From an uncultured Bradyrhizobium sp. (GTDB lineage Bacteria; Pseudomonadota; Alphaproteobacteria; Rhizobiales; Xanthobacteraceae): a stretch of DNA of 64,000 nt. Shown in pieces: positions 4,208 through 28,389 of this stretch (position 1 is the first letter of the stretch; each line of letters begins with the position of its first letter). Where the stretch lies: assembly GCF_947648125.1 (NCBI RefSeq), contig NZ_CANSMR010000024.1, positions 1 through 64,000 of the forward strand, given 5' to 3'. The notes under the pieces were generated by a model. That model ran no database searches. It was not told where the DNA came from and was given only the letters and a program-made list of their open reading frames with translations. Both the position numbers and the translations under genes were made by a program.

Positions 4208-4348
4208 GCGCGCCCCCCCGGATCATCGCGCCCATCTGCATTCACATAACCGTCAACAAGGCCATCTACCGTTCGCGCCCGGTATCGGAAGCGGGGAACG
4301 TTCTCCGCATGCACTCTGGATTGGTCGGAGCGGTCGGGCGGCAGCGGG

Positions 4349-5452
4349 ATGATCGAAACCTTCCGGGTTGGTCGTTTTGCAATGCGCTACGGCCATTTCG
4401 TTCCGCGGCTCTACAATTATTGCCGGTCGCTCGGCTTTGAGCGGCAGCATATGCTGCCGTCGCGCGCCTTCTGCTCCGACGAGAGCCAGGGCTATCCGGT
4501 TATGCTGCTGGCCCAGCATTTCGGAACCTTTCCGTTCGACCATGGGCGGGTCGGCGGCAAGGTCGCGATCAACCGCCACGGGCCGTTTGCCCATCATGGC
4601 GAGGACCTGGTGCTGATCCAGGCCAGCCATGTCGGCTACAATCCCGATGATGGCCGCTTCGGGGTCTATCAGCGCCACCGCACCGAAGGTTGCAGGTTTG
4701 GGGATGGCTGCGGCAAGCTCTGCGGCGTCCTGCGCTGGTATGAGGACGAATACGCGCTTGCCTGCCGGCAGGTGCAATGCGGCCGGCTCGATGGCGAGCC
4801 GGTGTTCCGGATCGACAATCAATATCTCGACGACAGCCGCAGCGAAGGTCTCTTTCTATGGCTCGACCGCATGGTCGAGACGCCGCGCCAGCCGCTGAGC
4901 GTGCTGAGCACGTCGAAGGTCTTTCGCGCAGGCCGGGCGATCCGCGAACGGCTCGGCGAAGCCTGCTTTGGCGAGACACCGGCACCGATCGGCACGGCGC
5001 TGTCGCCCGATCTGTTTCACTTCCGCCGTGCGCTGGCCGAAGGTCCCGAGGGCCATGACATTCTCGAGGCAGCGCTCGCTCCTGTCATGCCGGCGCTGGT
5101 GACGTCGCCGCATCCTGCATTGGATGCCGCCCGCTTCGTCACCCAGGCCGAGTTCGACCGCACCTATCGGAGCATTTTGCGTGAACCGGCGTTCCAGACC
5201 AAGAACGTGCTGTTCGTCTCCGGCCTGAACATCGACGTGTCGCCGCGCGAGGGATTCCCGTTTCCGTTCACCAAATTCGTTCCCTGGGCCGCCTATGCCC
5301 GCCTGCGCGACGGTCGCTCGTTCCTGCTGGAGCAGGAGGAGTTCGCCGAGACGCTGCGCCGGATGCCGGGCGAAAATCCGGATTGCCTGTCCTTCGACAG
5401 GACAATCGAGCAGATGACCACCGCGCCGGAAATCCGGCTTCCGATCGGTTGA
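4349..5452 (+). CDS. LCIB-type (beta/theta) carbonic anhydrase-like protein
   Basis: The N-terminal 130 residues match the pattern of the LCIB_C_CA family, the zinc carbonic anhydrase fold described from algal LCIB proteins. C42 sits in AFCSDES, followed by a Gly-rich loop (FPFDHGRVGGK). H94 is in IQASHVGYNPDDGRFG, and C121/C125 are in GDGCGKLCG. A Cys ... His ... Cys set with this spacing and the HVG-x-x-x-D-G turn is what LCIB enzymes use for Zn. The remaining about 240 residues are an additional domain I do not recognise, ending in an FPFTKFVPWAAY block. The family would catalyse CO2/bicarbonate interconversion, though some algal members are inactive alone. Start ATG 4349 is used; no strong Shine-Dalgarno is seen. 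A 64-residue gene follows 5 bp later. Confidence 0.6.
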   Translation: MIETFRVGRFAMRYGHFVPRLYNYCRSLGFERQHMLPSRAFCSDESQGYPVMLLAQHFGTFPFDHGRVGGKVAINRHGPFAHHGEDLVLIQASHVGYNPDDGRFGVYQRHRTEGCRFGDGCGKLCGVLRWYEDEYALACRQVQCGRLDGEPVFRIDNQYLDDSRSEGLFLWLDRMVETPRQPLSVLSTSKVFRAGRAIRERLGEACFGETPAPIGTALSPDLFHFRRALAEGPEGHDILEAALAPVMPALVTSPHPALDAARFVTQAEFDRTYRSILREPAFQTKNVLFVSGLNIDVSPREGFPFPFTKFVPWAAYARLRDGRSFLLEQEEFAETLRRMPGENPDCLSFDRTIEQMTTAPEIRLPIG

Positions 5453-16554: not shown

Positions 16555-16606
16555 TGACCGGGATCACCTAACCTGATGGCAAGCAACATTGCATCGGGAG
16601 GGTGAC

Positions 16607-17671
16607 ATGGCTGATGACGGAATTTTCCTGCGCAACGCCTGGTACGTGGCGGCGCTGAATCACGAGCTGATCGACGGCAAGAAGCTGGCGCGCACCATCC
16701 TGGAGCGGCCGATCGTGATCTATCGCGGCGCCAGCGGGAAGGTGGTCGCGCTCGACGACCGTTGCTGCCATCGCGCCGCGCCGCTCTCGATGGGGCGCGT
16801 CGAGGGTGACGACATCAGGTGCATGTATCACGGCATGAAGTTCGCGGCCGACGGCAAGTGCATCCAGATCCCCGGCCAGGACGCGATCCCCGCCAAGCTC
16901 GGCGTGCGCAGCTATCCCGTGGTCGAGCGCTACAACATGATCTTCATCTGGACCGGCGATGCCGAGAAGGCCGATCCGAAGCTGATCCTCGACTATCCGC
17001 CGCTCGAGGATCCCAAGTGGCGCGGCCTGCCCGGCTACATGCATTACAAGGCCAACTGGCTGCTGATCGTCGACAATCTCAGCGATTTCGCGCATCTCGC
17101 CTTCGTGCACACCAACACGCTCGGCGGCTCGGAGGAATATGCCTACAAGACCAAGCCGGTGGCGATCGAGAAGCTGGACGACGGCTTCCGCGTCGAGCGT
17201 TGGCACATGGGCGCCGATGCGCCGCCCTACCACAAGAAGGTGATTTCCAACCGCGACGACAAGGTCGATCGTCGCAATATCGGCCGCATGATCGTGCCGG
17301 GCATCTTCACGCTCGACACCACGTTCGCGCCCGCGGGGCAGGGCGTGGAGAAAGGCGTCCAGGTTCCGGGCACGCGGCAATACCGCAACGCGCAGTTCAT
17401 GACGCCGGAGACGCGTTCCTCGACGCACTTCTTCTGGAACTACCTGCACGATTTCGACACCGACAATCCGAACATTTCGCTGTCGCTGCGGCATTCCCTC
17501 GAGGAGGCCTTCAACGAGGACAAGGATTTCATTGAAGCGCAGCAGAAGGTGCTCGACGTCGATCCGGACTATCAGCTGCTTGCGATCGGCGCCGATGCGC
17601 CGCTGACCTATTTCCGCTGGCTGTTTGCACGCCGGCTCGATGCGGAGAAAGGCGCTGCGCGCGCCGCATAG
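16607..17671 (+). CDS. Rieske non-heme iron oxygenase, alpha subunit (VanA-like)
   Basis: A 354-residue oxygenase. The Rieske [2Fe-2S] ligands are C-C-H and C-M-Y-H in DRCCHRAAPLSMG and RCMYHGMKF. The mononuclear iron site is in NLSDFAHLAFVHTN with two histidines. The length and motif layout match single-component-alpha enzymes such as vanillate O-demethylase VanA and related O/N-demethylases. The start ATG 16607 has GGGAGGG upstream. A reductase partner (VanB type) is not encoded in this window, so electrons must come from elsewhere. The divergent LysR gene probably regulates it. The exact substrate, likely a methoxylated or similar aromatic, cannot be told from sequence. Confidence 0.88.
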   Translation: MADDGIFLRNAWYVAALNHELIDGKKLARTILERPIVIYRGASGKVVALDDRCCHRAAPLSMGRVEGDDIRCMYHGMKFAADGKCIQIPGQDAIPAKLGVRSYPVVERYNMIFIWTGDAEKADPKLILDYPPLEDPKWRGLPGYMHYKANWLLIVDNLSDFAHLAFVHTNTLGGSEEYAYKTKPVAIEKLDDGFRVERWHMGADAPPYHKKVISNRDDKVDRRNIGRMIVPGIFTLDTTFAPAGQGVEKGVQVPGTRQYRNAQFMTPETRSSTHFFWNYLHDFDTDNPNISLSLRHSLEEAFNEDKDFIEAQQKVLDVDPDYQLLAIGADAPLTYFRWLFARRLDAEKGAARAA

Positions 17672-17858: not shown

Positions 17859-19016
17859 ATGAGCTTGCACGAAAAGACGGACCCATCGGAACGAAGTGCG
17901 AGCGCCAGCTGGGTGCAGTACGCTTGGCTATGGCCGTTTGAAGCCACGCGATTGGCGCTCGATATCTACTCGCAGTGGTACCCCGGTCGCGCGCCCGAAC
18001 CGACAGATGCGGCGGACGAAGTGGCGGCGCTGCCCTGGACGACGGCCAATTCGGTGGCGCTGCAACTGCCGTCGATGCGTCTGCTGGACTTCTCGAGAGC
18101 TGGCGAAGGCCAGCCGCTGCTGGTCTGCGCACCCTATGCGCTGCACCGCGCGAAGATAGCGGATCTTGCGCCCGGCCACAGCCTGATGGAGGCGTTACAC
18201 GGCGCGGGTATTGCACGTCTCTATCTCACGGATTGGCTCTCGGCGGCACCGGAGATGCGATATTTCTCGATCGACACCTATCTGTCCGATCTCAACGTGG
18301 CCGTCGACACGATTGGGCCGCCCGTCGACCTTGCAGGTCTCTGTCAGGGCGGCTGGCTGTCGCTGCTCTATGCCGCGCGCTTTCCCGGCAAGGTGCGGCG
18401 GCTCGTGCTAGCCGGCAGCCCGGTCGATGTCTCTGTGCCGTCAGAGCTTTCCAGGATGGTCGCCTCGCTTCCGCAGCAAGGTTTTGAGGCACTGGTGCGC
18501 CAGGGGAACGGAATCGTCAGTGGCAGGCAGATGCTGCAGGTCTGGAGTGTCCCGCTCAGTACGCTTGACGTGGAAGCGGCGCTGCAGCAGCGGCTCGACG
18601 ACAAGTCGGAGGATGCACGGGCGCTGTTCGATTGCTTCACACGCTGGAACCGAGAGACGCTTGATTTACCGGGCACCTACTATCTCGAGGTGACCGACTG
18701 GATCTTTCGCCAGAACCGGATCGCGGCCGGAAACTTCGTCGCGCTTGGCTGCAAGATCGATCTTGCTGCGGTGAAGCTGCCCGTTTTCCTGCTCGCAGCC
18801 GAGAACGACATTGTTGTTCCGCCCGACCAGGCATTTGCGACGTTGCAACTGTTGGGCACGCCGCCCGCGTGGCTGCAATGCGACACCGAGCCCTGTGGTC
18901 ACCTCGGACTGTTCATGGGCTGCAGGGCTCTGGCCGGTTCATGGCGCCGGATTGCCCGCTGGCTTCAGTCCGATCTCGGTGAGGCTGCGGGCGAGCGATC
19001 GCGGATCAGCGCGTGA
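17859..19016 (+). CDS. PHA synthase-like alpha/beta hydrolase (Cys nucleophile)
   Basis: A 385-residue protein of the PhaC type. The lipase-like box has cysteine, not serine, in AGLCQGGW (C162), and the other triad members fit D317 (ENDIVVPP) and H348 (CGHLGLFMG). The block TYYLEVTDWIFRQNRIAAG followed by GCKIDLAAVKLPVFLLAA is characteristic of the poly(3-hydroxyalkanoate) synthase family. The length is near class III PhaC (about 355), but the PhaE partner is not nearby, so it may be a specialised paralogue or a depolymerase-like relative. A FixK/FNR box lies 49 bp upstream, so expression under low oxygen is expected. It converges on the RidA gene. Confidence 0.75.
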   Translation: MSLHEKTDPSERSASASWVQYAWLWPFEATRLALDIYSQWYPGRAPEPTDAADEVAALPWTTANSVALQLPSMRLLDFSRAGEGQPLLVCAPYALHRAKIADLAPGHSLMEALHGAGIARLYLTDWLSAAPEMRYFSIDTYLSDLNVAVDTIGPPVDLAGLCQGGWLSLLYAARFPGKVRRLVLAGSPVDVSVPSELSRMVASLPQQGFEALVRQGNGIVSGRQMLQVWSVPLSTLDVEAALQQRLDDKSEDARALFDCFTRWNRETLDLPGTYYLEVTDWIFRQNRIAAGNFVALGCKIDLAAVKLPVFLLAAENDIVVPPDQAFATLQLLGTPPAWLQCDTEPCGHLGLFMGCRALAGSWRRIARWLQSDLGEAAGERSRISA

Positions 19017-19093: not shown

Positions 19094-19444
19094 TTACTTC
19101 GCCGCGACGACCATGATCTCGACATTGTACTGCGGCGCCGCGAGCTTGGCCTCGACGGTGGCGCGGGCCGGGGTGTTACCCTCCGAGACCCAGCCGTCCC
19201 ACACCGCGTTCATCTCCGGGAACGTCTTCATGTCGGTGATGTAGATGGTCGCGCTGAGCAGCTTCGACTTGTCGGTGCCGGCCTTGGCGAGGTGGCCGTC
19301 GATGATCGACAGGATGTCCTTGGTCTGGTCGGTGACGCTGCCGCCCGCGGCCTTGCCGGCGACGACGCCGGCGAGATAGACGGTGTTGCCGTGCACGACG
19401 GCCTGGCTCATGCGCGGGCCGGTTTCGAAACGCTGAATGCTCAT
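19094..19444 (-). CDS. RidA family protein (YjgF/YER057c/UK114)
   Basis: A 116-residue Rid-family protein. It starts MSIQRFETGPRMSQAVVHGNTVYLAG and contains QTKDILSIIDGHLAKAGTDKSKLLSATIYITDMKTFPEMNAVWDGWV, here abbreviated. The segment TPARATVEAKLA carries the arginine that positions the substrate carboxylate in active imine deaminases. The family trimer hydrolyses reactive enamine/imine intermediates from PLP enzymes. ATG 19444 is used because GTGGAGA lies just upstream. The neighbouring genes give no specific substrate. Confidence 0.9.
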   Translation of the reverse strand: MSIQRFETGPRMSQAVVHGNTVYLAGVVAGKAAGGSVTDQTKDILSIIDGHLAKAGTDKSKLLSATIYITDMKTFPEMNAVWDGWVSEGNTPARATVEAKLAAPQYNVEIMVVAAK

Positions 19445-19642
19445 TTGGGTCTCCACTTGAATGGCGGGCACTGTCTAGCGCGTCAAAGCGAGCGCCGCCA
19501 CTGCGCATTTTGCAGCGCACGTCTCACGGAAATCGATCGAAATTGCACCGAGGTCGCCTCGGCGCAATCGCATTGTCAAAAACCCTGTCCGAATGACGCG
19601 AATTGTGCCACGGCTCCAATCGCTGGAGCTGCGGCTTCCCGA

Positions 19643-21094
19643 TCAGGCTGTCAAATTCCGCGCATCGGCCCAGCGTGCGAACAGCGCCACCTGTTCGGCC
19701 GGCCAGGCGCCGTCGCACGGCATGGTGCCGGCCTCGAGACGGGCCAGGATCTGCCGGCAGTGTTTGGCGACATCCGCCTCCTTCCAGAGATCGAAGGCGA
19801 ACAGCATCGAGTTGCGGTCCATCGGCCGGAACAGCGGCCGGATGTGCTGCTCGAATAGCACGGCATCGTCGAGACCGGGCAGCGCGACGCTCGCTTCGTT
19901 CACGGTCTGCGTCGCGCCTGCGATTGCGGGCGGCCGCGCGGCGGGCGTTGCGTTGCAGACCCACCACCAGCGCGGCACCGGCATGTTCGGCGGCGGCTTT
20001 GCGCCGGTGCCGGAATTCTCCACCGCGATCCGCGAGCCCCATTCGATATAGGCGACGAACGCGGCGCGGAATTCCGGATCGGACGGCAGCCCGGCATCGT
20101 CGGCGCTCTGCACCATGTAGGTGGCCCACAGCGCGCGCTGCTCCGGCCTGATCTCCTTGCCGATGTGCTGCGACACCATCCGCCGATAGCCGCCATAGCG
20201 CTCGGTGTAGAAGCGCGGTCCGCCGAACACCTCGCTGAGCCAGGCCGCCACCCGTTCGGGATGGTCCGGCGACATCTCGGCGAACAGCGGGGAGAGCAGC
20301 GGATCTTCCGGCACGTAGCGGCTGTAGAAGATGCGTGTCATGTCGAGGAGCGCCGGATAGCCGCCGGCCCATTCGAACAGCGTCGGCTCGCGCAGCGGAT
20401 CCGGAACGGGATCGTGAAACGCGACATTCCAGTGCATGCCGCTGCAGAACGGCTTGTTCAGCGACGAGCCGCAGCGGCACAAGCTGACATGCTCCTTTGA
20501 CGCACCTGCATTTTGCGCGATCGGCGCGCCGTCCTCGTCGACCAGTTCGACGTGGCCGGTGATGCGATAGGGGCCGTCCTTCGACACTTCGATCTGCGGC
20601 GGCCGGTCGACGTCGGACAGGCTGGCGTCCCGCGCGGGGCCGATGCCGATGCCGAGCGCCCCCGATGGGCATCGGCGCACCGCATTGATGAGGTCGTCGA
20701 GGCGCGCGCCGCTCGGCGCGACGAAAGGCTCCTCGCCGAGACGGAACACGGAGTTGAGCCGGTCGGTGCAGAAGCCGGAATGCGCGCAGGTGCCGCGATT
20801 GTCGAACACATGCGCCTGCTGTCCGGCATAGACGTCGAGCTTGTCGGGCACGCGCCGCGGATCCCCGGCGTCGGTGAAGCCGCGCGCGATGTGGCTGTCG
20901 TCGCAGAACGGCTTGGTCTGCGATTGTCCGCAGCGGCAGAGCTGCACCGGCGCCTCGGCGGCAACAGGCACGCCGAGATGATCGACGATCGGAATGCCGG
21001 GCTCGGGTTCGTAGGGCCCGTTGCGCCTGACGATGATGCGCTTGCGCGGATGTTGCTGGTCGCTCGGTCCTTGGGCGGAACTGTCCTCTGTCAT
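19643..21094 (-). CDS. CDGSH / 4Fe-4S / CDGSH / group II truncated haemoglobin fusion
   Basis: A 483-residue multi-domain redox protein. CDGSH 1 has C53, C55, C64 and H68 (LCRCGQSQTKPFCDDSH). A ferredoxin-like mono-cluster domain has C103 and C109 (GTCAHSGFC) and C142 in RRCPSGAL. CDGSH 2 has C206, C208, C217 and H221. Residues 240-340 are a truncated haemoglobin of group II: FYSRY with Y257 at B10, proximal H310 in MVSQHIGKEIRPEQ and the group II tryptophan W323 (ALWATYM). The last about 100 residues, with FDLWKEADVAKHC and MPCDGAWPAEQV, are a domain I do not recognise. Electron transfer from Fe-S centres to a heme that binds O2 or NO is plausible. An HxlR regulator is divergent 105 bp away. 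ATG 21094 is preferred to TTG 21103. Confidence 0.88.
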   Translation of the reverse strand: MTEDSSAQGPSDQQHPRKRIIVRRNGPYEPEPGIPIVDHLGVPVAAEAPVQLCRCGQSQTKPFCDDSHIARGFTDAGDPRRVPDKLDVYAGQQAHVFDNRGTCAHSGFCTDRLNSVFRLGEEPFVAPSGARLDDLINAVRRCPSGALGIGIGPARDASLSDVDRPPQIEVSKDGPYRITGHVELVDEDGAPIAQNAGASKEHVSLCRCGSSLNKPFCSGMHWNVAFHDPVPDPLREPTLFEWAGGYPALLDMTRIFYSRYVPEDPLLSPLFAEMSPDHPERVAAWLSEVFGGPRFYTERYGGYRRMVSQHIGKEIRPEQRALWATYMVQSADDAGLPSDPEFRAAFVAYIEWGSRIAVENSGTGAKPPPNMPVPRWWWVCNATPAARPPAIAGATQTVNEASVALPGLDDAVLFEQHIRPLFRPMDRNSMLFAFDLWKEADVAKHCRQILARLEAGTMPCDGAWPAEQVALFARWADARNLTA

Positions 21095-21199
21095 GCCTTG
21101 CAATGATCCCTGAACTCGCCCAACCCGCGCAAAGCGTGCTTAGATGGATCGACGGCGGCGCTCAACGAACCAGATGGAAAGTGCCGCGGGAGGGTTGCG

Positions 21200-21547
21200 A
21201 TGATCCGCAAGACCAAGCGCAAATATGGTTGCCCGGTCGAGTTCTCGATCGATCAGCTCAGCGGCAAATGGAAGACCGTGATCCTGAGCCGGCTGAAGGT
21301 GCGGCCGATGCGCTATGGCGAGCTGCGCCACGATATCCCGCAGCTCAGCGACAAGGTCTTGACCGAGCGTCTGCGTGATCTCTGCAATTCAGGCTTCGTC
21401 AAGCAGGAGCGCGGCGGCGGCTCCTCGCGCTATTGCCTGACCAAACGCGGCGAGATGCTGAAGCCGATGCTGCAGGCACTCTATGACTGGGGCGAGGCCA
21501 ACGCCGACGCCTTCGGCGTCCGGTTTCTCAGTGCGGAGGCGGACTAG
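21200..21547 (+). CDS. HxlR-family transcriptional regulator
   Basis: A 115-residue winged-helix regulator of the HxlR family. It has the conserved cysteine near the N-terminus in YGCPVEFSIDQLSGKWKTVILSRL, the HTH helices MRYGELRHDIPQLSDKVLTERLRDL and the wing RGGGSSRYCLTKRG. HxlR proteins often sense electrophiles or oxidants through that first cysteine. GGGAGGG precedes the ATG. Divergence from the CDGSH-haemoglobin gene suggests that gene is its target and that the pair responds to reactive oxygen, nitrogen or electrophile stress. Confidence 0.9.
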   Translation: MIRKTKRKYGCPVEFSIDQLSGKWKTVILSRLKVRPMRYGELRHDIPQLSDKVLTERLRDLCNSGFVKQERGGGSSRYCLTKRGEMLKPMLQALYDWGEANADAFGVRFLSAEAD

Positions 21548-21872: not shown

Positions 21873-22069
21873 TATCCATCATGATCTCTATCACTTGTGC
21901 GTGTGGCGCCTGTTGAAATAAAGAGGCAGGAGAATCGTCAAACCTGAGCACCACAGGCCTCGGGTCTAAGTCAGTCGACGCGTTCGGGAGCGGAACCATC
22001 CGAGAGACAGTGGTGCCACCTTGCCGCCCCCCTGCACCGGGGCGGGCAAGCCAGGTGAATTATTCTTCC

Positions 22070-24043
22070 ATGGGACGGAAGATTCTGCGCACGGGTTGCG
22101 CAGTCGTTGCGGCAGTCAGTTGGTTGCTGTGCGAGTCGGCTCACGCCTTCGACTTCTTCGGCCTGCTCGGTTCCGACGATCCGCCACCGGTTGGCGCCAC
22201 GACGTTGTCATACCGCCTCACGATCGAAACCAAGACAACCGAAGGCAAAAATGATAGCGACGCCGAGCAAGCATTGCGCGACGCTTCCGGGACATATCGT
22301 CTCCGGCAAGAACCGCCGCCGGATGGAGAAGGTCTTGCGCGCCGACTTCAGGCCGACGTCAATCCGCTCCTGGATGCACTTTGGGGACTGGGCCATTACA
22401 ACGCAGAGATCGATATCACGATAGACGGAGTTCCCGTCTCATTCGACGAGGCCGGATTGGCCCTCGCCGCGCAGCGTGCAGACAAGTTTCGCAACCGCTC
22501 GATCATTCCGATTGCGATCATCGCTCGGCTCGGCCCGACGTTCAAATTGCGGACTGTCGATGTCGATTATCCTCGCGACCAAGCGCCACAGGGACTGCCA
22601 ATTCGCGCCTTTGCTCTGAAGCCAGGCGATCCGGCTGCGTCCGCCAACCTGCGCGCCGCGCAGCTGAAACTCGTCGACTGGTTCCGCAGTCATGGACATC
22701 CGTTGGCGAAAATCGCGGACGTCAAGGCAACAGTGGATCACGCGGCGGGCGCGATGGATTTCCGCCTGCGGGTCGAACCAGGCCCGAAGGCCGGTATCGG
22801 CGCCGTCACGATCTCGGGCGACGGGGCCGTCGACCCGCGGGTGGTGGCGACCCATGTTTATCTGAAGGAAGGCGAGCCCTATTCTCCCGAGCGGCTGGCG
22901 CTGACCAAGACCTCGATCGCAAAAATTCCGGCGATCGGCGGCATTCGCATTCGTGAGGCCGACAAGCTGGACGCCAACGGCAACCTGCCGGTCTTCATCG
23001 ATGTGACGGATCGACCCAGGCACGCGGTGGGCCTGTCGGCAAAATATTCTACCGTCGATGGTCCCGGCATTTCGGGCTACTACGAGGACCGGAACATATT
23101 CGGCGGCGGCGAGCGTCTGCGGCTTGAAGCGTCCGCCTCCCTGTTGCAACGGATCGATGGAACGTCCTCCAGCGGGTTCAATAATCTCCACGCGTCAGAT
23201 TTTGGTGCGCGATTCACCGGAACCTTCATCAAGCCGGGCTTGTTCGGCACCCCGAACGACCTCTTGATCGAAGCCACCGCCTTCCGCGAGCGCGTCGGCA
23301 ACAATGTGCTAGGCGGCTATACCGACGACACGGTGCGCGGCACGCTCGGCGTGGTCCATCGTTTTTCGGAGACCGCTTCGCTGCAGGGCGGCATTCAGGT
23401 CGAGCAGTCGAGATCGCAGGACGTGCTGGGGCGGGTCGATGCGACACTCGTCGGCTTCACCGCGACCGGCCGCTACGACACTACGGACAATCCGCTCGAT
23501 CCCACGCGCGGTGTGCGCCTTGCTGCGACCGTCAATGCCTATTCGAAGCTGATGGGCTCCACGATCGACCTCTTCGAGGGCCGCGTCTCAGGTTCGGCCT
23601 ATTATGCGCTCGACGAGCAGGCCGACTACGTGCTGGCGGGCCGGCTGGCTGCGGGCTCGCTCGCGGGAGCGCCGCTGGCTGACATTCCGGATTCGCACCG
23701 TTTCTTCGCGGGCGGCGGCGGATCCGTGCGTGGCTACGGCTTCAACACCATCTCGCCGATGATGTTCGGTCAGATCACCGGTGGCAGCAGCCTGATCGAA
23801 GGCTCCGCTGAGGTGCGCGTCAGGATCACACCTACCATCGGCCTCGTGCCGTTCGTGGACTTCGGTTCGGTGTCCCGTTCGTCGCTGCCGGGCTTCAGCG
23901 ATTATGTCGGCTACGGGGCCGGGCTTGGCCTGCGTTATCTCACGCCGGTGGGCCCGATCCGGCTCGACGTCGCGACACCGCTGAACCCGCGACCCGGCGA
24001 CAGTCGCTACGCCATCTATGTCAGCATCGGGCAGGCCTTCTGA
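22070..24043 (+). CDS. tamA: TamA-like outer membrane translocation protein (Omp85)
   Basis: A 657-residue Omp85 protein. Residues 1-27 form a signal peptide (GCAVVAAVSWLLCESAHA). POTRA-like domains occupy about 60-330 (for example FKLRTVDVDYPRDQAPQGLP and KAGIGAVTISGDGAVDPRVVATHVYLKEGEPYSPERL, cited in part). A 16-strand barrel follows, with FFAGGGGSVRGYGF (the VRGY/F motif of strand 14 loop L6) and a C-terminal strand ending YAIYVSIGQAF. TamA works with TamB in moving proteins or phospholipids to the outer membrane. The stop codon overlaps the tamB ATG by one base (TGATG), so they are coupled. ATG 22070 gives the best signal peptide. Confidence 0.88.
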   Translation: MGRKILRTGCAVVAAVSWLLCESAHAFDFFGLLGSDDPPPVGATTLSYRLTIETKTTEGKNDSDAEQALRDASGTYRLRQEPPPDGEGLARRLQADVNPLLDALWGLGHYNAEIDITIDGVPVSFDEAGLALAAQRADKFRNRSIIPIAIIARLGPTFKLRTVDVDYPRDQAPQGLPIRAFALKPGDPAASANLRAAQLKLVDWFRSHGHPLAKIADVKATVDHAAGAMDFRLRVEPGPKAGIGAVTISGDGAVDPRVVATHVYLKEGEPYSPERLALTKTSIAKIPAIGGIRIREADKLDANGNLPVFIDVTDRPRHAVGLSAKYSTVDGPGISGYYEDRNIFGGGERLRLEASASLLQRIDGTSSSGFNNLHASDFGARFTGTFIKPGLFGTPNDLLIEATAFRERVGNNVLGGYTDDTVRGTLGVVHRFSETASLQGGIQVEQSRSQDVLGRVDATLVGFTATGRYDTTDNPLDPTRGVRLAATVNAYSKLMGSTIDLFEGRVSGSAYYALDEQADYVLAGRLAAGSLAGAPLADIPDSHRFFAGGGGSVRGYGFNTISPMMFGQITGGSSLIEGSAEVRVRITPTIGLVPFVDFGSVSRSSLPGFSDYVGYGAGLGLRYLTPVGPIRLDVATPLNPRPGDSRYAIYVSIGQAF

Positions 24044-27000
24044 TGCGCGTGCGACGGGCCTTCATTGTCGGTTCTGCCATAGCGGCGCTTGGACTCGTCT
24101 CTGTTGCTGTGCTCGGCGTCGTCTTCCACGGAATGGTAGGCGGAAGCGGCGAAAATCAGCAGGACATGCTCGCCGGCCTCGTCTCGCGAACGCTCTCGAC
24201 GCCCGCGACCCAGGTTCACATCGGCGCCGTCGACGGCGTCCTCTCGTCGGATGCGACGGTGCACGATGTCAGCATCACCGACAGGGACGGAGTTTGGCTG
24301 ACCCTCGACAAGGCCCGTCTCGTCTGGCGGCGCACTGCGCTGCTAATGGGGCGGCTGGAGATCGATCGGCTCGAGATCGGCACGCTCGATATCAAGCGAA
24401 AGCCGCTGCCGTCCGACCAGCCCACCGCGGAGTCCGGCCAGCCGATCCTGCCGGACCTTCCCGTGAAAGTACAGGTGAAGGCTTTCGACCTGCGTGCCCT
24501 GGTGCTGGGCCAGCCCATTCTCGGCGAGGCCCTGAGCGTCAAGGCGACCGGCAATGCCGAGCTGGGCTCACCCTCGGAGGGCCTCGTTTTCAATCTCGAT
24601 GCGATCCGCACTGATTTCCCGGGCCATTTCAAGGCCGCGCTCGCCTTCGTACCGCAGGGCAACGCGTTGACCCTCGATGTCACGCTCGACGAACCCGCCC
24701 GCGGACTGATGTCCAAGATCGGTCATTTGCCGGGCGAGCCGCCCGTGACGTTCGCGCTGGGCGGCAAGGGCACGCTCGACAGCTTCCGCGGCGCGCTGAA
24801 GTTTCAGGCCGGCCCTACCATTGATGCGACCGGTGTGATCACGCTTGACCGCAACGGGGCGGGCCGCGTCCTTGCAACCCGTCTCACGAGTCATCTCGGA
24901 CCGCTGCTGCCGTCAGTTGCCGCGCCCGTCTTCGCCGGCGAGACCAATCTCGACAGCACGACGCATTTCGGCGACGACGGCAGCGTCGCGCTGGACGGGC
25001 TGACGCTCACGAGCCGCCTCGCGCGGCTCGACGTGAAGGGCCTGCTTGGCGCCGACAGAGTGATGGATTTCAGGGCCTCCATCCGCGCCCTGCCCAGCAA
25101 TGGCGACGTCACGGAAACGGATCAGGGGGCGATCCGCAGCCTGGTGTTCGACAGCAGGGTCAACGGACCGATCAAGGCGCCGACGCTCACGGCCAAGCTC
25201 GCAATGTCAGGCGCCCGCCTGCCGGATGGAAATCTCGACGCGCTCGACGCCTCGCTGACGGCAGTCCCGCGCGCCGAGCCCAGCGACCTCGCAACGCATA
25301 TCGTGCTGGATGCAAATTTGCGGGCCTCGGGCATCGCGCCGCGCGATCCCGGTCTCGCGGCAGCAATCGGCAACAGTGCTTCGCTCGTGCTCCACGGCAG
25401 CACCGATCTCGGTGGCCACGCCACCATCGAGCGGCTGGAGATCGGCACGCCGACCGTTCAGGCCACCTATGCCGGCGACGTCAGTCCCGATCGGCTGCAT
25501 GGCCGTGCGACCGGAGCCATGCCTGACCTCGGCCGCTTCAGCGATCTCGCCGGGTTGAAGCTCAAGGGCGCCGTGGCTCTCGGCCTCGATCTCGACGCCG
25601 ATCGCGAGCACGGCCGCGTCGACGCCAAATTGTCCGGCACCGGCGAGGGGATCGCGACCGGGCTTGCGGCGCTGGATGGGCTCACAGGACCGCGCGTCAC
25701 GCTTGCCGCCGATGTCGGCGCAGATAGCGGCAGCGACACCTATACGGTCCGCGACGTTTCGCTCGACGGCGCCCATGTCGCGGTTCGCGCCAAGGGAACG
25801 GTGACCCACGAAACGAGCGATCTGTCGGCGCGTGTCAGTCTGCCCGATCTTGCCGCGGCCGATGCTCGCCTCACCGGTGTGGCAGCCGTCGACGTCGGCC
25901 TCACCGGAGGGCTCGCGCATCCCGGCGTGTCGTTCTCGGCCTCGGTCGATCGCGCCACCGCAATGCGGCGCCCGATTCCGCATCTGGAGCTCGCCGCGAC
26001 CGTCAATGACGTCAAGGGACCGTGTGTCATCGACGCCAGGCTCGATGGCTCGATCGACGGCAAGCAGGCGCGCGGGATCGTGCAAGCGAGCCGTCAATCG
26101 GGCGACACACCTGCTCCCGCTTTCGCCGGATGGGACGCCAACACGGTCGACATCGCGATCGGTTCGGTATCCTTGAAGGGGGCGGGCACGATCGACGCGC
26201 AAAGTCTCGCACGCGGGCAGATCCATTTCGCCGCCGGCTCGCTCGCCGACCTCGCACCGGTCGCCCTGATGGACCTCGTCGGTTCGGCGTCGCTCGATCT
26301 TGCCGCATCGGTCGATGACGGCCAGCAATCCGTCCGTCTCGCCGGCAAGGGCGCGGGGATCCGCGCAGCCGGTGCCGCGATCCGCAGCTTCGATCTGCGC
26401 GCCGATGCGACCGATCTCTACCGCCATCCGCTCCTCAACGCTGACGCCAAGGTCACCGGCGCCGAGATCGCCGGCCAGACTGTCTCGAGCATTGCGCTGA
26501 CCGCGCGTGGGAACGCCGGCACCAGCACCCTTGGCCTGTCGGCCAAGGCGGCCGGCTTCGATCTCGATGCCGCAGGCGTGCTCACCGCCAAAGATCGCAC
26601 GCGGTTCGATCTCAACCGCTTCACCGCGCGACGCGGCGCCAGGGCGATCGCGTTGCAGGGGCCAGCGAGTTTCACGCTCGACGACGGGAGCGTGCTGATC
26701 GAGCATCTGGCTCTCGGCATCGGCAAAGGTCGCTTCACGGTTGACGGCAGTGCCGGCAAGACGCTCAACGTCAAGGCGCTCGCAAGCGCGATCCCGCTCG
26801 GCGAGGCCGATGTCGTGATGCCGGGCCTGGGCCTTGCCGGGACGCTCGACGCCTCGGCGACGATTGCCGGCTCGACGAGCGCTCCGACGGGTCAGTACAA
26901 GGTCACCGTCAAGCAGCTGACCGCGCCGCAGAGCCGCAGCGCGGGCCTGCCTCCGATCGACGTCTCAGCAGATGGGCGCCTCGACGGAAGCCGCGCGAGC

Positions 27001-28389
27001 ATCGCCACCACGATCGCCGCCGGAAAAGCCGGCACGATCTCCGCCTCGGGCACGGTACCGCTCGATGCGGCCGGACCGATCGCGCTGACCGCGAAGGGCC
27101 GTCTCGATGCCGCCGTCGCGAACGCCGCGCTATCGGCGTCCGGCCGCACCGTGTCCGGCAGCGTCGTGCTCGATGCGCGGTTAAGCGGTACACGCGCCAA
27201 GCCCCAGATCGGCGGTGCCGCCAGCTTGAGTGGCGGTACATTCCGCGACAGCCTGCTCGGCACACGCTTCGACAATATCGAGGCGAAAGTCACCGCCGAC
27301 GGAGATCGTATCGTCGTGGAGCGCCTGACCGCCGCGACGCCCAACGGTGGCACATTGTCTGGTACCGGCCAGGTGCGGGTCGCCCCGGATGCAGGTTTCC
27401 CCGGCACGGTCTCGATTCGCGGACAACAGGCGACGCTGGCGGCCAGTGCGCTCGCGACCGCGCAGGCCAATCTTGCGATCGACGTCAGCGGTGCACTGGC
27501 GCGCGATCCCCGGATCAACGGCCGGATCGACCTGACCCACGTCGCCATCGATATTCCCGATCGTCTGCCGTCGACGCTGAAGCCGATCGACGGCATCAAC
27601 CACGTGAATGCGTCGGGCCAGGCCGCTGCACGCCTCGCGGCGGAACGCACGGCCGAAGCCCTTAAGAGCAGCAAGGGGCGCGCGGCGCTGTTCAATGCTG
27701 CGCTCGACGTTACGGTGTCGGCACCGAACCACGTTTTCATTCACGGCCGCGGGGTGACTGCGGAACTCGGCGGCTCCGTGCAAGTGGGCGGCACGACCAA
27801 CGCTCCGGTCCCGAAGGGTGCCTTCTCGCTCTATCAAGGCAAGCTCGTGGCGCTCGGAAAGACGTTGACCTTCACCAAGGGCAATCTCTCCTTCAACGGC
27901 GATCTTGCCCCCGAGCTCGACTTTGCGGCGGAGATCTCGGCCTCCGACATCACCGCGCAGGTCGGCATCTCCGGGCCCGCATCCGCGCCGGTCTTTGCCT
28001 TCACCTCGCAGCCCCAATTGCCGCAGGACGAGATTCTGTCGCGCATCCTGTTCCAGAAGGCGTCGGGCAGCCTGTCGACGTCGCAGGCCCTGCAGCTCGC
28101 GGAGGTGGCGGCACAGTTCGCAAGCGGTGGTGAGGGCACAATGGACCGTATGCGCCGCTCGCTCGGCGTCGACAGCCTTGATGTCGGCGTTGGAGCAGGC
28201 GGAAGTCCGATGGTTGGCGCGTCGCGCGCGATCGGCGACAGGTTGAGCGTCGGGGTACGGACGGGCGCTAGCGCCAGTCAGTCCGGCGTGTCCGCCAATG
28301 TGGACGTCACGCGTCATATCCGCGTGGAATCCGACATCGATGCAACCGGTGCAACGTCGGTCGGGGTCGGCACGCGCTTTGAATGGTGA
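24043..28389 (+). CDS. tamB: TamB-like translocation/assembly protein
   Basis: A 1448-residue protein of the AsmA-like/TamB superfamily. One N-terminal membrane anchor (AFIVGSAIAALGLVSVAVLGVVF) is followed by more than 1000 residues of repetitive beta-strand blocks forming the periplasm-spanning groove. The conserved C-terminal DUF490 domain is clear: GKLVALGKTLTFTKGNLSFNGD, FTSQPQLPQDEILSRILF and a last strand ending VGVGTRFEW. It bridges the inner membrane to TamA and is thought to move phospholipids or assist outer-membrane protein assembly. It overlaps tamA by one base. Confidence 0.9.
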   Translation: MRVRRAFIVGSAIAALGLVSVAVLGVVFHGMVGGSGENQQDMLAGLVSRTLSTPATQVHIGAVDGVLSSDATVHDVSITDRDGVWLTLDKARLVWRRTALLMGRLEIDRLEIGTLDIKRKPLPSDQPTAESGQPILPDLPVKVQVKAFDLRALVLGQPILGEALSVKATGNAELGSPSEGLVFNLDAIRTDFPGHFKAALAFVPQGNALTLDVTLDEPARGLMSKIGHLPGEPPVTFALGGKGTLDSFRGALKFQAGPTIDATGVITLDRNGAGRVLATRLTSHLGPLLPSVAAPVFAGETNLDSTTHFGDDGSVALDGLTLTSRLARLDVKGLLGADRVMDFRASIRALPSNGDVTETDQGAIRSLVFDSRVNGPIKAPTLTAKLAMSGARLPDGNLDALDASLTAVPRAEPSDLATHIVLDANLRASGIAPRDPGLAAAIGNSASLVLHGSTDLGGHATIERLEIGTPTVQATYAGDVSPDRLHGRATGAMPDLGRFSDLAGLKLKGAVALGLDLDADREHGRVDAKLSGTGEGIATGLAALDGLTGPRVTLAADVGADSGSDTYTVRDVSLDGAHVAVRAKGTVTHETSDLSARVSLPDLAAADARLTGVAAVDVGLTGGLAHPGVSFSASVDRATAMRRPIPHLELAATVNDVKGPCVIDARLDGSIDGKQARGIVQASRQSGDTPAPAFAGWDANTVDIAIGSVSLKGAGTIDAQSLARGQIHFAAGSLADLAPVALMDLVGSASLDLAASVDDGQQSVRLAGKGAGIRAAGAAIRSFDLRADATDLYRHPLLNADAKVTGAEIAGQTVSSIALTARGNAGTSTLGLSAKAAGFDLDAAGVLTAKDRTRFDLNRFTARRGARAIALQGPASFTLDDGSVLIEHLALGIGKGRFTVDGSAGKTLNVKALASAIPLGEADVVMPGLGLAGTLDASATIAGSTSAPTGQYKVTVKQLTAPQSRSAGLPPIDVSADGRLDGSRASIATTIAAGKAGTISASGTVPLDAAGPIALTAKGRLDAAVANAALSASGRTVSGSVVLDARLSGTRAKPQIGGAASLSGGTFRDSLLGTRFDNIEAKVTADGDRIVVERLTAATPNGGTLSGTGQVRVAPDAGFPGTVSIRGQQATLAASALATAQANLAIDVSGALARDPRINGRIDLTHVAIDIPDRLPSTLKPIDGINHVNASGQAAARLAAERTAEALKSSKGRAALFNAALDVTVSAPNHVFIHGRGVTAELGGSVQVGGTTNAPVPKGAFSLYQGKLVALGKTLTFTKGNLSFNGDLAPELDFAAEISASDITAQVGISGPASAPVFAFTSQPQLPQDEILSRILFQKASGSLSTSQALQLAEVAAQFASGGEGTMDRMRRSLGVDSLDVGVGAGGSPMVGASRAIGDRLSVGVRTGASASQSGVSANVDVTRHIRVESDIDATGATSVGVGTRFEW

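Follow-up and report, generated by a model that had tools for sequence, protein, structure and literature searches.

Flavohaemoglobin is a natural haemoglobin joined to a flavin reductase, and it resembles the protein reported here in combining a globin with redox centres, but it does so with FAD/NAD(P)H domains and with a globin of a different family. The actinomycete fusions of an ABM domain to a truncated haemoglobin, of which a Streptomyces case has reportedly been described, belong to the same wider globin branch as our protein, and some of them have a divergent HxlR gene and a similar dyad; however, ABM is their N-terminal partner, and they carry neither Fe-S domains nor the C-terminal domain discussed below. 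For the bacterial CDGSH/Fer4_19 proteins, to our knowledge, no job has been agreed. The accessible part of PMC5859297 describes Class II CDGSH proteins with Fer4_19, which like our protein hold two CDGSH domains and Fer4_19 on one chain, and also reports CDGSH together with ferritin-like domains; the words globin and hemoglobin are absent from the main text, whereas our protein adds a group II truncated haemoglobin (trHbII) and a further domain. The globins HlmG, HolF and Hom2 of the holomycin and thiomarinol clusters share with the fusion globin a tail ending in W-x-W, although HolF, unlike the fusion protein, is a single-domain protein among dithiolopyrrolone genes (PMC3826145, accessible part). 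In the same part of that paper, HlmG, Hom2 and HolF are tabled as 'Globin' while the text calls HolF a flavin-dependent oxygenase, and no settled step is assigned to HlmG or HolF. Finally, AsqI, a haemocyanin-like fungal zinc enzyme and cyclopenase (PDB 5yy2/5yy3; PMC6053404, accessible part), resembles our C-terminal domain over its residues 660-742, but otherwise no part shared with the fusion protein was seen.

Here we describe a fusion gene (19643..21094, minus strand) in a window of 64,000 nucleotides from an uncultured Bradyrhizobium sp., which encodes a single 483-residue chain of the order CDGSH - Fer4_19 - CDGSH - trHbII - C-terminal domain, as read from the open reading frame, Pfam and alignment. 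Searches of open-access papers, with subscription journals mostly outside their reach, returned no apt report of a fusion of CDGSH to a truncated hemoglobin or globin. Likewise, the open-access papers searched contained no report of truncated hemoglobin with antibiotic biosynthesis monooxygenase; among the matches listed for chimeric truncated globins none was apt, and of those on HxlR with globin one proved unrelated in its accessible part.

Architecture and predicted metal sites of the fusion protein

The minus-strand frame is open from an ATG at 21094 to a stop at 19643, and this open 483-residue frame, together with Pfam matches above the curated cut-offs, bears out the list of domains on one chain given in a preliminary description of the locus. 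The family zf-CDGSH (PF09360) matches two stretches (E 5.1e-29, 100.7 bits against a curated cut-off of 29.5), covering the first CDGSH motif at residues 53-68 (20891..20938, minus strand), which reads CDDSH in the translation and has C53, C55, C64 and H68 as ligands, and the second CDGSH domain at residues 173-222 (20429..20578, minus strand), which reads CSGMH and has C206, C208, C217 and H221. Between them, Fer4_19 (PF06902) matches residues 89-148 (20651..20830, minus strand; E 9.4e-15, 54.8 bits, cut-off 24), with C103, H105, C109 and C142. Bac_globin matches residues 238-338 (E 1.0e-9, above the curated cut-off) within the globin and its C-terminal tail, which span residues 235-380 (19955..20392, minus strand) and contain Y257, H310 and W323. 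After a linker follows the C-terminal domain (residues 403-483; 19646..19888, minus strand), which was delimited by profile searches and for which neither Pfam nor NCBIfam gave anything credible; it measures about 70-80 residues rather than the about 100 first proposed. On the fusion chain, Pfam at E up to 1 detects no FAD, flavin, NAD(P)H or reductase domain, and the FAD- and NAD(P)H-binding reductase domain of a flavohaemoglobin is thus absent at that threshold; neither does Pfam detect a sensor-output domain (kinase, cyclase or DNA-binding), and NCBIfam names no family for the protein at E up to 1.

The predicted metal sites were compared in an alignment of 24 rows, taken from the window and from the contig-scan loci described below, of which 22 are full-length (from Bradyrhizobium, a Sphingomonas bin and Actinomycetota, the window included) and two comprise the globin and C-terminal domain only. 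All 11 cluster ligands, with Tyr257, His310 and Trp323, are identical in 22/22 full-length rows, and the numbering of these residues in the preliminary description was right throughout; the three globin residues are also present in all 24 rows. Both CDGSH sets consist of three cysteines and one histidine in every full-length row, and the literal CDGSH string is altered in the window protein: by eye, the first motif reads CDDSH in nine of the 22 rows (the window among them) and CDG.H in 13, and the second reads CSGMH in all 22. The Fer4_19 site has C103, C109 and C142 followed by P143 in 22/22 rows, in the pattern Cys-x5-Cys ... Cys-Pro, and His105 is equally invariant; by eye, L002 and L003, relatives of the ferritin-like kind, have Ala at this position. 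With only three cysteines it is a predicted Fe-S site, to which the sequence assigns neither a cluster type nor a fourth ligand. Outside these sites, C380 is absent from L029 only and C460 from the frame-broken L021 only.

The globin can be placed in group II by its B10 Tyr, F8 His and G8 Trp and by its similarity to PDB 5d1v, 2bmm and 1ngk; its closest solved relatives are 5d1v and 2bmm, both of group II. The whole chain is predicted to bind both Fe-S clusters and haem. In its own genome, a single place matches the whole fusion query at E 0.01.

Distribution, kinship and origin of the parts

The search for the same architecture in other genomes, proposed in the preliminary description, found it in many, including Actinomycetota. 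A scan of genome contigs gave 37 loci, of which tblastn over the loci and reading of the open frames showed 31 to have the whole architecture: 18 from Bradyrhizobium, one from the Sphingomonas bin (L023) and 12 from Actinomycetota (L024-L035). A Bradyrhizobium copy, L021, has a frame break near the end of the fusion gene; L039 shows the whole architecture, but in broken pieces; L037 and L038 have the globin and C-terminal domain only, L040 and L042 are partial, and L041 is an ABM-globin fusion. In the genus survey, matches at E 1e-30 came from 28 of the 265 genomes, of which 26 (our own included) carry the long protein, one of these in frame to residue 418, one has the globin only and one a C-terminal remnant only; these 26 genomes and the 18 Bradyrhizobium loci overlap as strains and are not additive. 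The family sample yielded matches at 1e-10 in 4 of 198 genomes, with the globin part in our own genome only, and low counts of this kind may be underestimates, since in each genome scoring was confined to the best first-look candidates. Among PLSDB plasmids, no record covers 80% of the fusion protein. The distribution of the fusion gene is patchy. Because the same architecture recurs in many genomes and its ligands are invariant, the fusion is not a product of chance or of assembly error, and an artefact of frame or assembly is ruled out. One genus genome without the remainder of the gene retains a remnant (L047, 5378-5593, minus strand) that corresponds to residues 405-476, is 82% identical and has similar neighbours; the idea that this stretch was an independent domain was dropped, as it is a remnant in the same neighbourhood (neighbours compared by eye).

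The globin domain is 51% identical to HolF, encoded on the thiomarinol plasmid pTML1, and 52% identical to a Streptomyces finlayi plasmid globin, both of them single-domain proteins among biosynthetic-looking genes, and the ABM-fused globin of L041 is equally similar (52% identity). The globin tree is labelled by a string rule, contains one gene twice (L025, L078) and includes a second globin from L102, a stray with a very long branch. In this tree, the rows fused to CDGSH and those with globin plus C-terminal domain fall into a single clade (100/99); its sister, at 92/85 and short of the starred level, comprises L095, HolF and the globin from S. finlayi. The globin profile matches 145 of 345 genomes of the actinomycete class at 1e-15, the weakest of these matches probably being ordinary trHbII. 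In the window's order it matches 6 of 199 genomes, namely our own and five that have single-domain frames and no HxlR match. ABM was confirmed by Pfam in four proteins (L041, L085, L098 and L099), and the other ABM calls were made by eye. Our own genome also encodes a short second truncated globin on another contig, C30 (L077, 23.6 bits against a cut-off of 21).

Since the alphaproteobacterial globin rows (96/91) nest inside a 12-row, otherwise actinomycete clade (95/90) of the globin tree, a transfer between phyla is suggested, probably from Actinomycetota. Two loci from the family of the window genome, L002 and L003, encode a ferritin-like domain ahead of CDGSH - Fer4_19 - CDGSH without a globin (by Pfam for L002), and the actinomycete fusion L030 contains a stretch matching the ferritin-like profile (26.2 bits against a cut-off of 22.3). 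From the other 11 actinomycete members we built a profile of their N-terminal extensions and ran it, with the search-space size fixed, against a short list of targets. It matches L030 (3.3e-31), L002 (1.2e-19) and L003 (7.1e-16) in the stretch that separates the ferritin-like domain from the first CDGSH domain; the profile does not match L066, which has the ferritin-like and C-terminal domains and no CDGSH. Because L002, L003 and L030 share these domains and the matching extension, the ancestor was plausibly a ferritin-like/CDGSH protein that later gained the globin and the C-terminal domain, and actinomycetes would then plausibly have lost the ferritin core, and Bradyrhizobium the entire extension, in an order that we infer. 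Genome G486 has the parts as separate genes: a frame matching residues 74-227, a ferritin/C-terminal protein and a weak globin match.

The C-terminal domain also occurs apart from the fusion. With the best 16 candidates per genome scored, a search of 346 genomes from the actinomycete phylum gave profile matches in at least 14, counting the centre genome, and a search of 349 from our own phylum in at least 1, though the plasmid search found it in proteobacteria that the own-phylum genome search missed; that search, made with one stand-alone copy, gave six records. Among 17 open frames read besides the window's, ten are of 77-104 residues, that is, the domain standing alone, and L066 has the ferritin-like domain ahead of it without CDGSH. 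The enlarged profile matches AsqI residues 660-742 (E 9.3e-8), strengthened from 2.5e-4, while a match to adiponectin weakened from 1.5e-6 to 1.7e-4; the adiponectin match at E 1.5e-6 was set aside as the sum of three weak identical repeats, each near E 10. A degenerate cytochrome c, considered for the MPP...W pattern without CxxCH, was also dropped, since no profile backs it. Scanning 22 loci with the profile gave 22 matches in 21 loci, and a tyrosinase lies within a few kb of the domain in three of them, Mesorhizobium L155, Bradyrhizobium septentrionale L156 and Embleya L049 (by annotation in L155 and L156, and by a 75-residue match in L049); the L155 and L156 tyrosinases, used as two queries, found none in the other scanned loci. 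The tie of this domain to O2-binding metalloproteins is so far no more than a lead, and two observations stand against it as a companion of such proteins: in L072 (382-1722, plus strand) it ends a PilT-type-ATPase-like frame (by eye), a candidate fusion or read-through, and several stand-alone copies adjoin a PEP-carboxykinase-like gene (by eye). Two C-terminal-domain proteins occur in L155 (2097-2645 and 4587-5237), in a gene row annotated with multicopper oxidase, tyrosinase and cytochrome P460. On contig C25 of our own genome, a weakly matching second copy of the domain, an MPP variant (L158, 6539-6985, minus strand), overlaps the start of a putative exported protein.

The divergent HxlR gene and the 18-bp dyad

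An HxlR-family regulator with an early cysteine, Cys11, is encoded divergently from the fusion gene (21200..21547, plus strand; PF01638, E 2.6e-20, 72.5 bits, cut-off 20.8), and the spacer holds an imperfect 18-bp dyad, ACTTTCC-N4-GGTTCGT (21165..21182, minus strand), which, judged from its conservation in carriers, is presumed to be the HxlR operator. In all 26 genus genomes that carry the fusion gene, hxlR is adjacent and divergent, and the dyad [AG]CTTTCC-N4-GGT[TG]CGT lies between the two genes (26/26). The Sphingomonas bin L023 has a divergent HxlR as well, with ACTTACC-N4-GGTGCGT in a spacer that is otherwise largely diverged, and in L154 the gap between hxlR and the fusion gene is 296 bases against 102-131 elsewhere, while the distance from dyad to fusion gene is unchanged. 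The additional bases of this spacer (about 190; L021 / L154) occur together with the frame break of the fusion gene near residue 418. The preliminary description raised a divergent HxlR as a possibly constant companion, and this holds for the genus carriers and the Sphingomonas bin, but beside the 12 actinomycete CDGSH fusions of full length, with flanks of up to 5 kb read, none was found (L028 and L034 have almost no upstream DNA). HxlR was likewise found in 0/17 loci from actinomycetes or Chloroflexota that carry CDGSH or globin-C-terminal genes, whole or in pieces, some of which have little upstream DNA, and in 0/16 control loci (L058-L073). A profile match in L032 was dropped as an HxlR, as it has no early Cys and a very long branch.

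Some related globins have a similar arrangement. The 30 best-scoring actinomycete globin loci (L078-L107) include two CDGSH fusions, L078 and L079, and 11 of the 28 others have a divergent HxlR, as does the ABM-globin locus L041. The pattern ACNNNCC-N4-RGTNCGT, drawn up after the sequences had been viewed, so that its counts are descriptive, lies between the genes in 8/11 of these HxlR-linked loci and in L041, with variants in L085, L096 and L102; it was found in 0/17 globin loci without HxlR and elsewhere four times in the 672,558 bases scanned, two of these being one shared site. In L085, L088, L091-L094 and L096, the hxlR-globin spacers contain nearly perfect palindromes of the type GGTACGCAC...GTGCGTACC, which are stronger than the dyad of Bradyrhizobium.

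The window HxlR shares 36-44% identity with the 12 actinomycete HxlRs linked to globins versus 30-37% with nine paralogues of its own genome, and 11 of the 12 outscore the best of those paralogues, with that of L085 just below; the HxlR tree, which samples part of the wider family, leaves its relation to the globin-linked proteins unsettled. The early Cys is present in all 16 globin-linked HxlR rows and also in 8/9 own-genome paralogues. A wider dyad regulon was dropped: the own genome has one exact site and seven others at two mismatches, versus seven in the reversed control. Because the dyad is unique in its own genome, the switch looks local. Simple consensus searches of 19400-21300 gave no sigma-70-like promoter and no other promoter-like or terminator-like site. 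In L037, a MarR-family gene (4315-4887, minus strand) takes the place of HxlR, divergent from the globin-plus-C-terminal-domain gene.

Possible functions of the fusion protein

The domains, the conserved ligands, the gene linkage, the conserved dyad and the kinship of the parts were seen directly, and from them we infer cofactor binding, repression, inducer, electron path and substrate as follows. Because the predicted centres, the globin kin and the HxlR linkage favour such a protein, we tentatively prefer, as a possibility that falls short of an even chance, an HxlR-controlled Fe-S/haem protein that would perform O2 chemistry on a reactive small molecule. HxlR would normally repress the divergent fusion gene and, on sensing a thiol-reactive or oxidising chemical (the inducer class of other HxlR proteins), presumably at Cys11, would leave the dyad, whereupon the fusion protein would be made. 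A general cellular reductase may then pass electrons into the CDGSH/Fer4_19 clusters, which could keep the HlmG-type haem ferrous or supply a second electron, and the haem with O2 (or peroxide, or NO) may oxidise or destroy the small molecule, the C-terminal domain being a putative accessory and not a cofactor site. This reading is consistent with the invariance of cluster and haem ligands (22/22), with HxlR and dyad in 26/26 genus carriers and L023, with their recurrence at actinomycete globin loci and the kept distance of the dyad to the fusion gene in L154, with the scores of the window HxlR against the globin-linked ones, with the 51-52% identity and sister grouping of the globin with HolF and the S. 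finlayi globin, and with the occurrence of related parts with ABM domains, ferritin-like domains and AsqI. Against it, the chain has no flavin/NAD(P)H domain and no reductase was found among the neighbours checked by Pfam, L037 and L038 have the globin and C-terminal domain without the Fe-S part, the actinomycete fusions were read without HxlR, the HxlR tree is unsettled and 8/9 paralogues share the early Cys, the consensus search gave no sigma-70-like promoter, and the sister grouping with HolF is below the starred level with ABM-fused globins equally identical.

The electron wire imagined in the preliminary description stands in part. The Fe-S and globin domains do lie on one chain with conserved ligands, but the wire is not 'self-contained': at E up to 1 the chain shows no flavin, reductase or NAD(P)H domain through which NAD(P)H could feed it, and therefore electrons must come from outside. 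That the wire is necessary is also weakened, because L037 and L038 are without the Fe-S part and their genomes gave no CDGSH match elsewhere at E 1e-5.

The group II globin with its conserved Tyr257, His310 and Trp323, and the three predicted Fe-S sites in cis, would also suit an NO dioxygenase or reductase, as raised in the preliminary description, in which NO is turned over at the trHbII haem and the Fe-S domains, in place of the flavin domain of flavohaemoglobin, return the haem to its reduced state; yet the sister group of the globin is of the HolF kind, the regulator, an HxlR, differs from typical sensors of NO (NsrR, NorR, DNR and the like), the second globin on contig C30 might itself serve NO, and we consider this function unlikely. 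The HolF kinship could instead point to a biosynthetic enzyme that carries out an HlmG/HolF-like oxidation on the way to a small molecule and has its electron donor built in as the Fe-S part, in keeping with the biosynthesis-like neighbours of HolF and of the S. finlayi plasmid globin and with the ABM, VioB-type ferritin-like and AsqI kinship of related parts. It is nevertheless improbable, as no biosynthetic cluster was recognised by eye around the gene in the window and in five other Bradyrhizobium loci (of 18), and HlmG and HolF are themselves without a settled role, their 'globin' entry in the table differing from the flavin-dependent oxygenase of the text (PMC3826145, accessible part). 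A sensor or cluster-trafficking protein, whose clusters and haem would signal O2, NO or redox state, or whose clusters would be handed on, in either case without turnover, accords with the participation of CDGSH clusters in electron and cluster transfer (PMC5859297, accessible part), but is very unlikely, since the chain has no output domain and is presumably regulated by a different protein, an HxlR that has a Cys itself.

A haemoglobin fused to CDGSH and Fer4_19 clusters would represent a novel means of powering O2 chemistry at a haem. A broader and more doubtful proposal would be a new design of wired haemoglobin, in which CDGSH/Fer4_19 clusters replace the flavin as the electron feed of a trHbII haem within one chain, governed by a kind of HxlR operator common to two phyla, while the C-terminal module would be an undescribed accessory domain travelling with O2-binding metalloproteins of different metals (haem globin, ferritin-like fold and haemocyanin/tyrosinase fold). 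The fusion makes a guess at the job of CDGSH/Fer4_19 testable, its partner haem being visible to spectroscopy, the recurring HxlR dyad links this globin branch to a searchable chemical signal, and the unnamed C-terminal domain offers a lead on AsqI-like and ferritin-like proteins.

The neighbours of the gene were viewed in six of the 19 Bradyrhizobium loci (window included), and PADLOC gave no match at 0.01. Downstream of the fusion gene and on the same strand lies a RidA-type gene (19094-19441, minus strand; Ribonuc_L-PSP, 6.3e-26), whose frame has matches in 18 other loci and in L020 stands on the other side of hxlR. RidA removes reactive imines, and a link to the fusion protein is possible. 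Farther out, a Rieske oxygenase with a VanA_C domain (16589-17671, plus strand) is followed by an alpha/beta hydrolase (17859-19016), and beyond hxlR an Omp85/POTRA protein and then a TamB protein form a TamA/TamB-like pair (22010-28389, plus strand).
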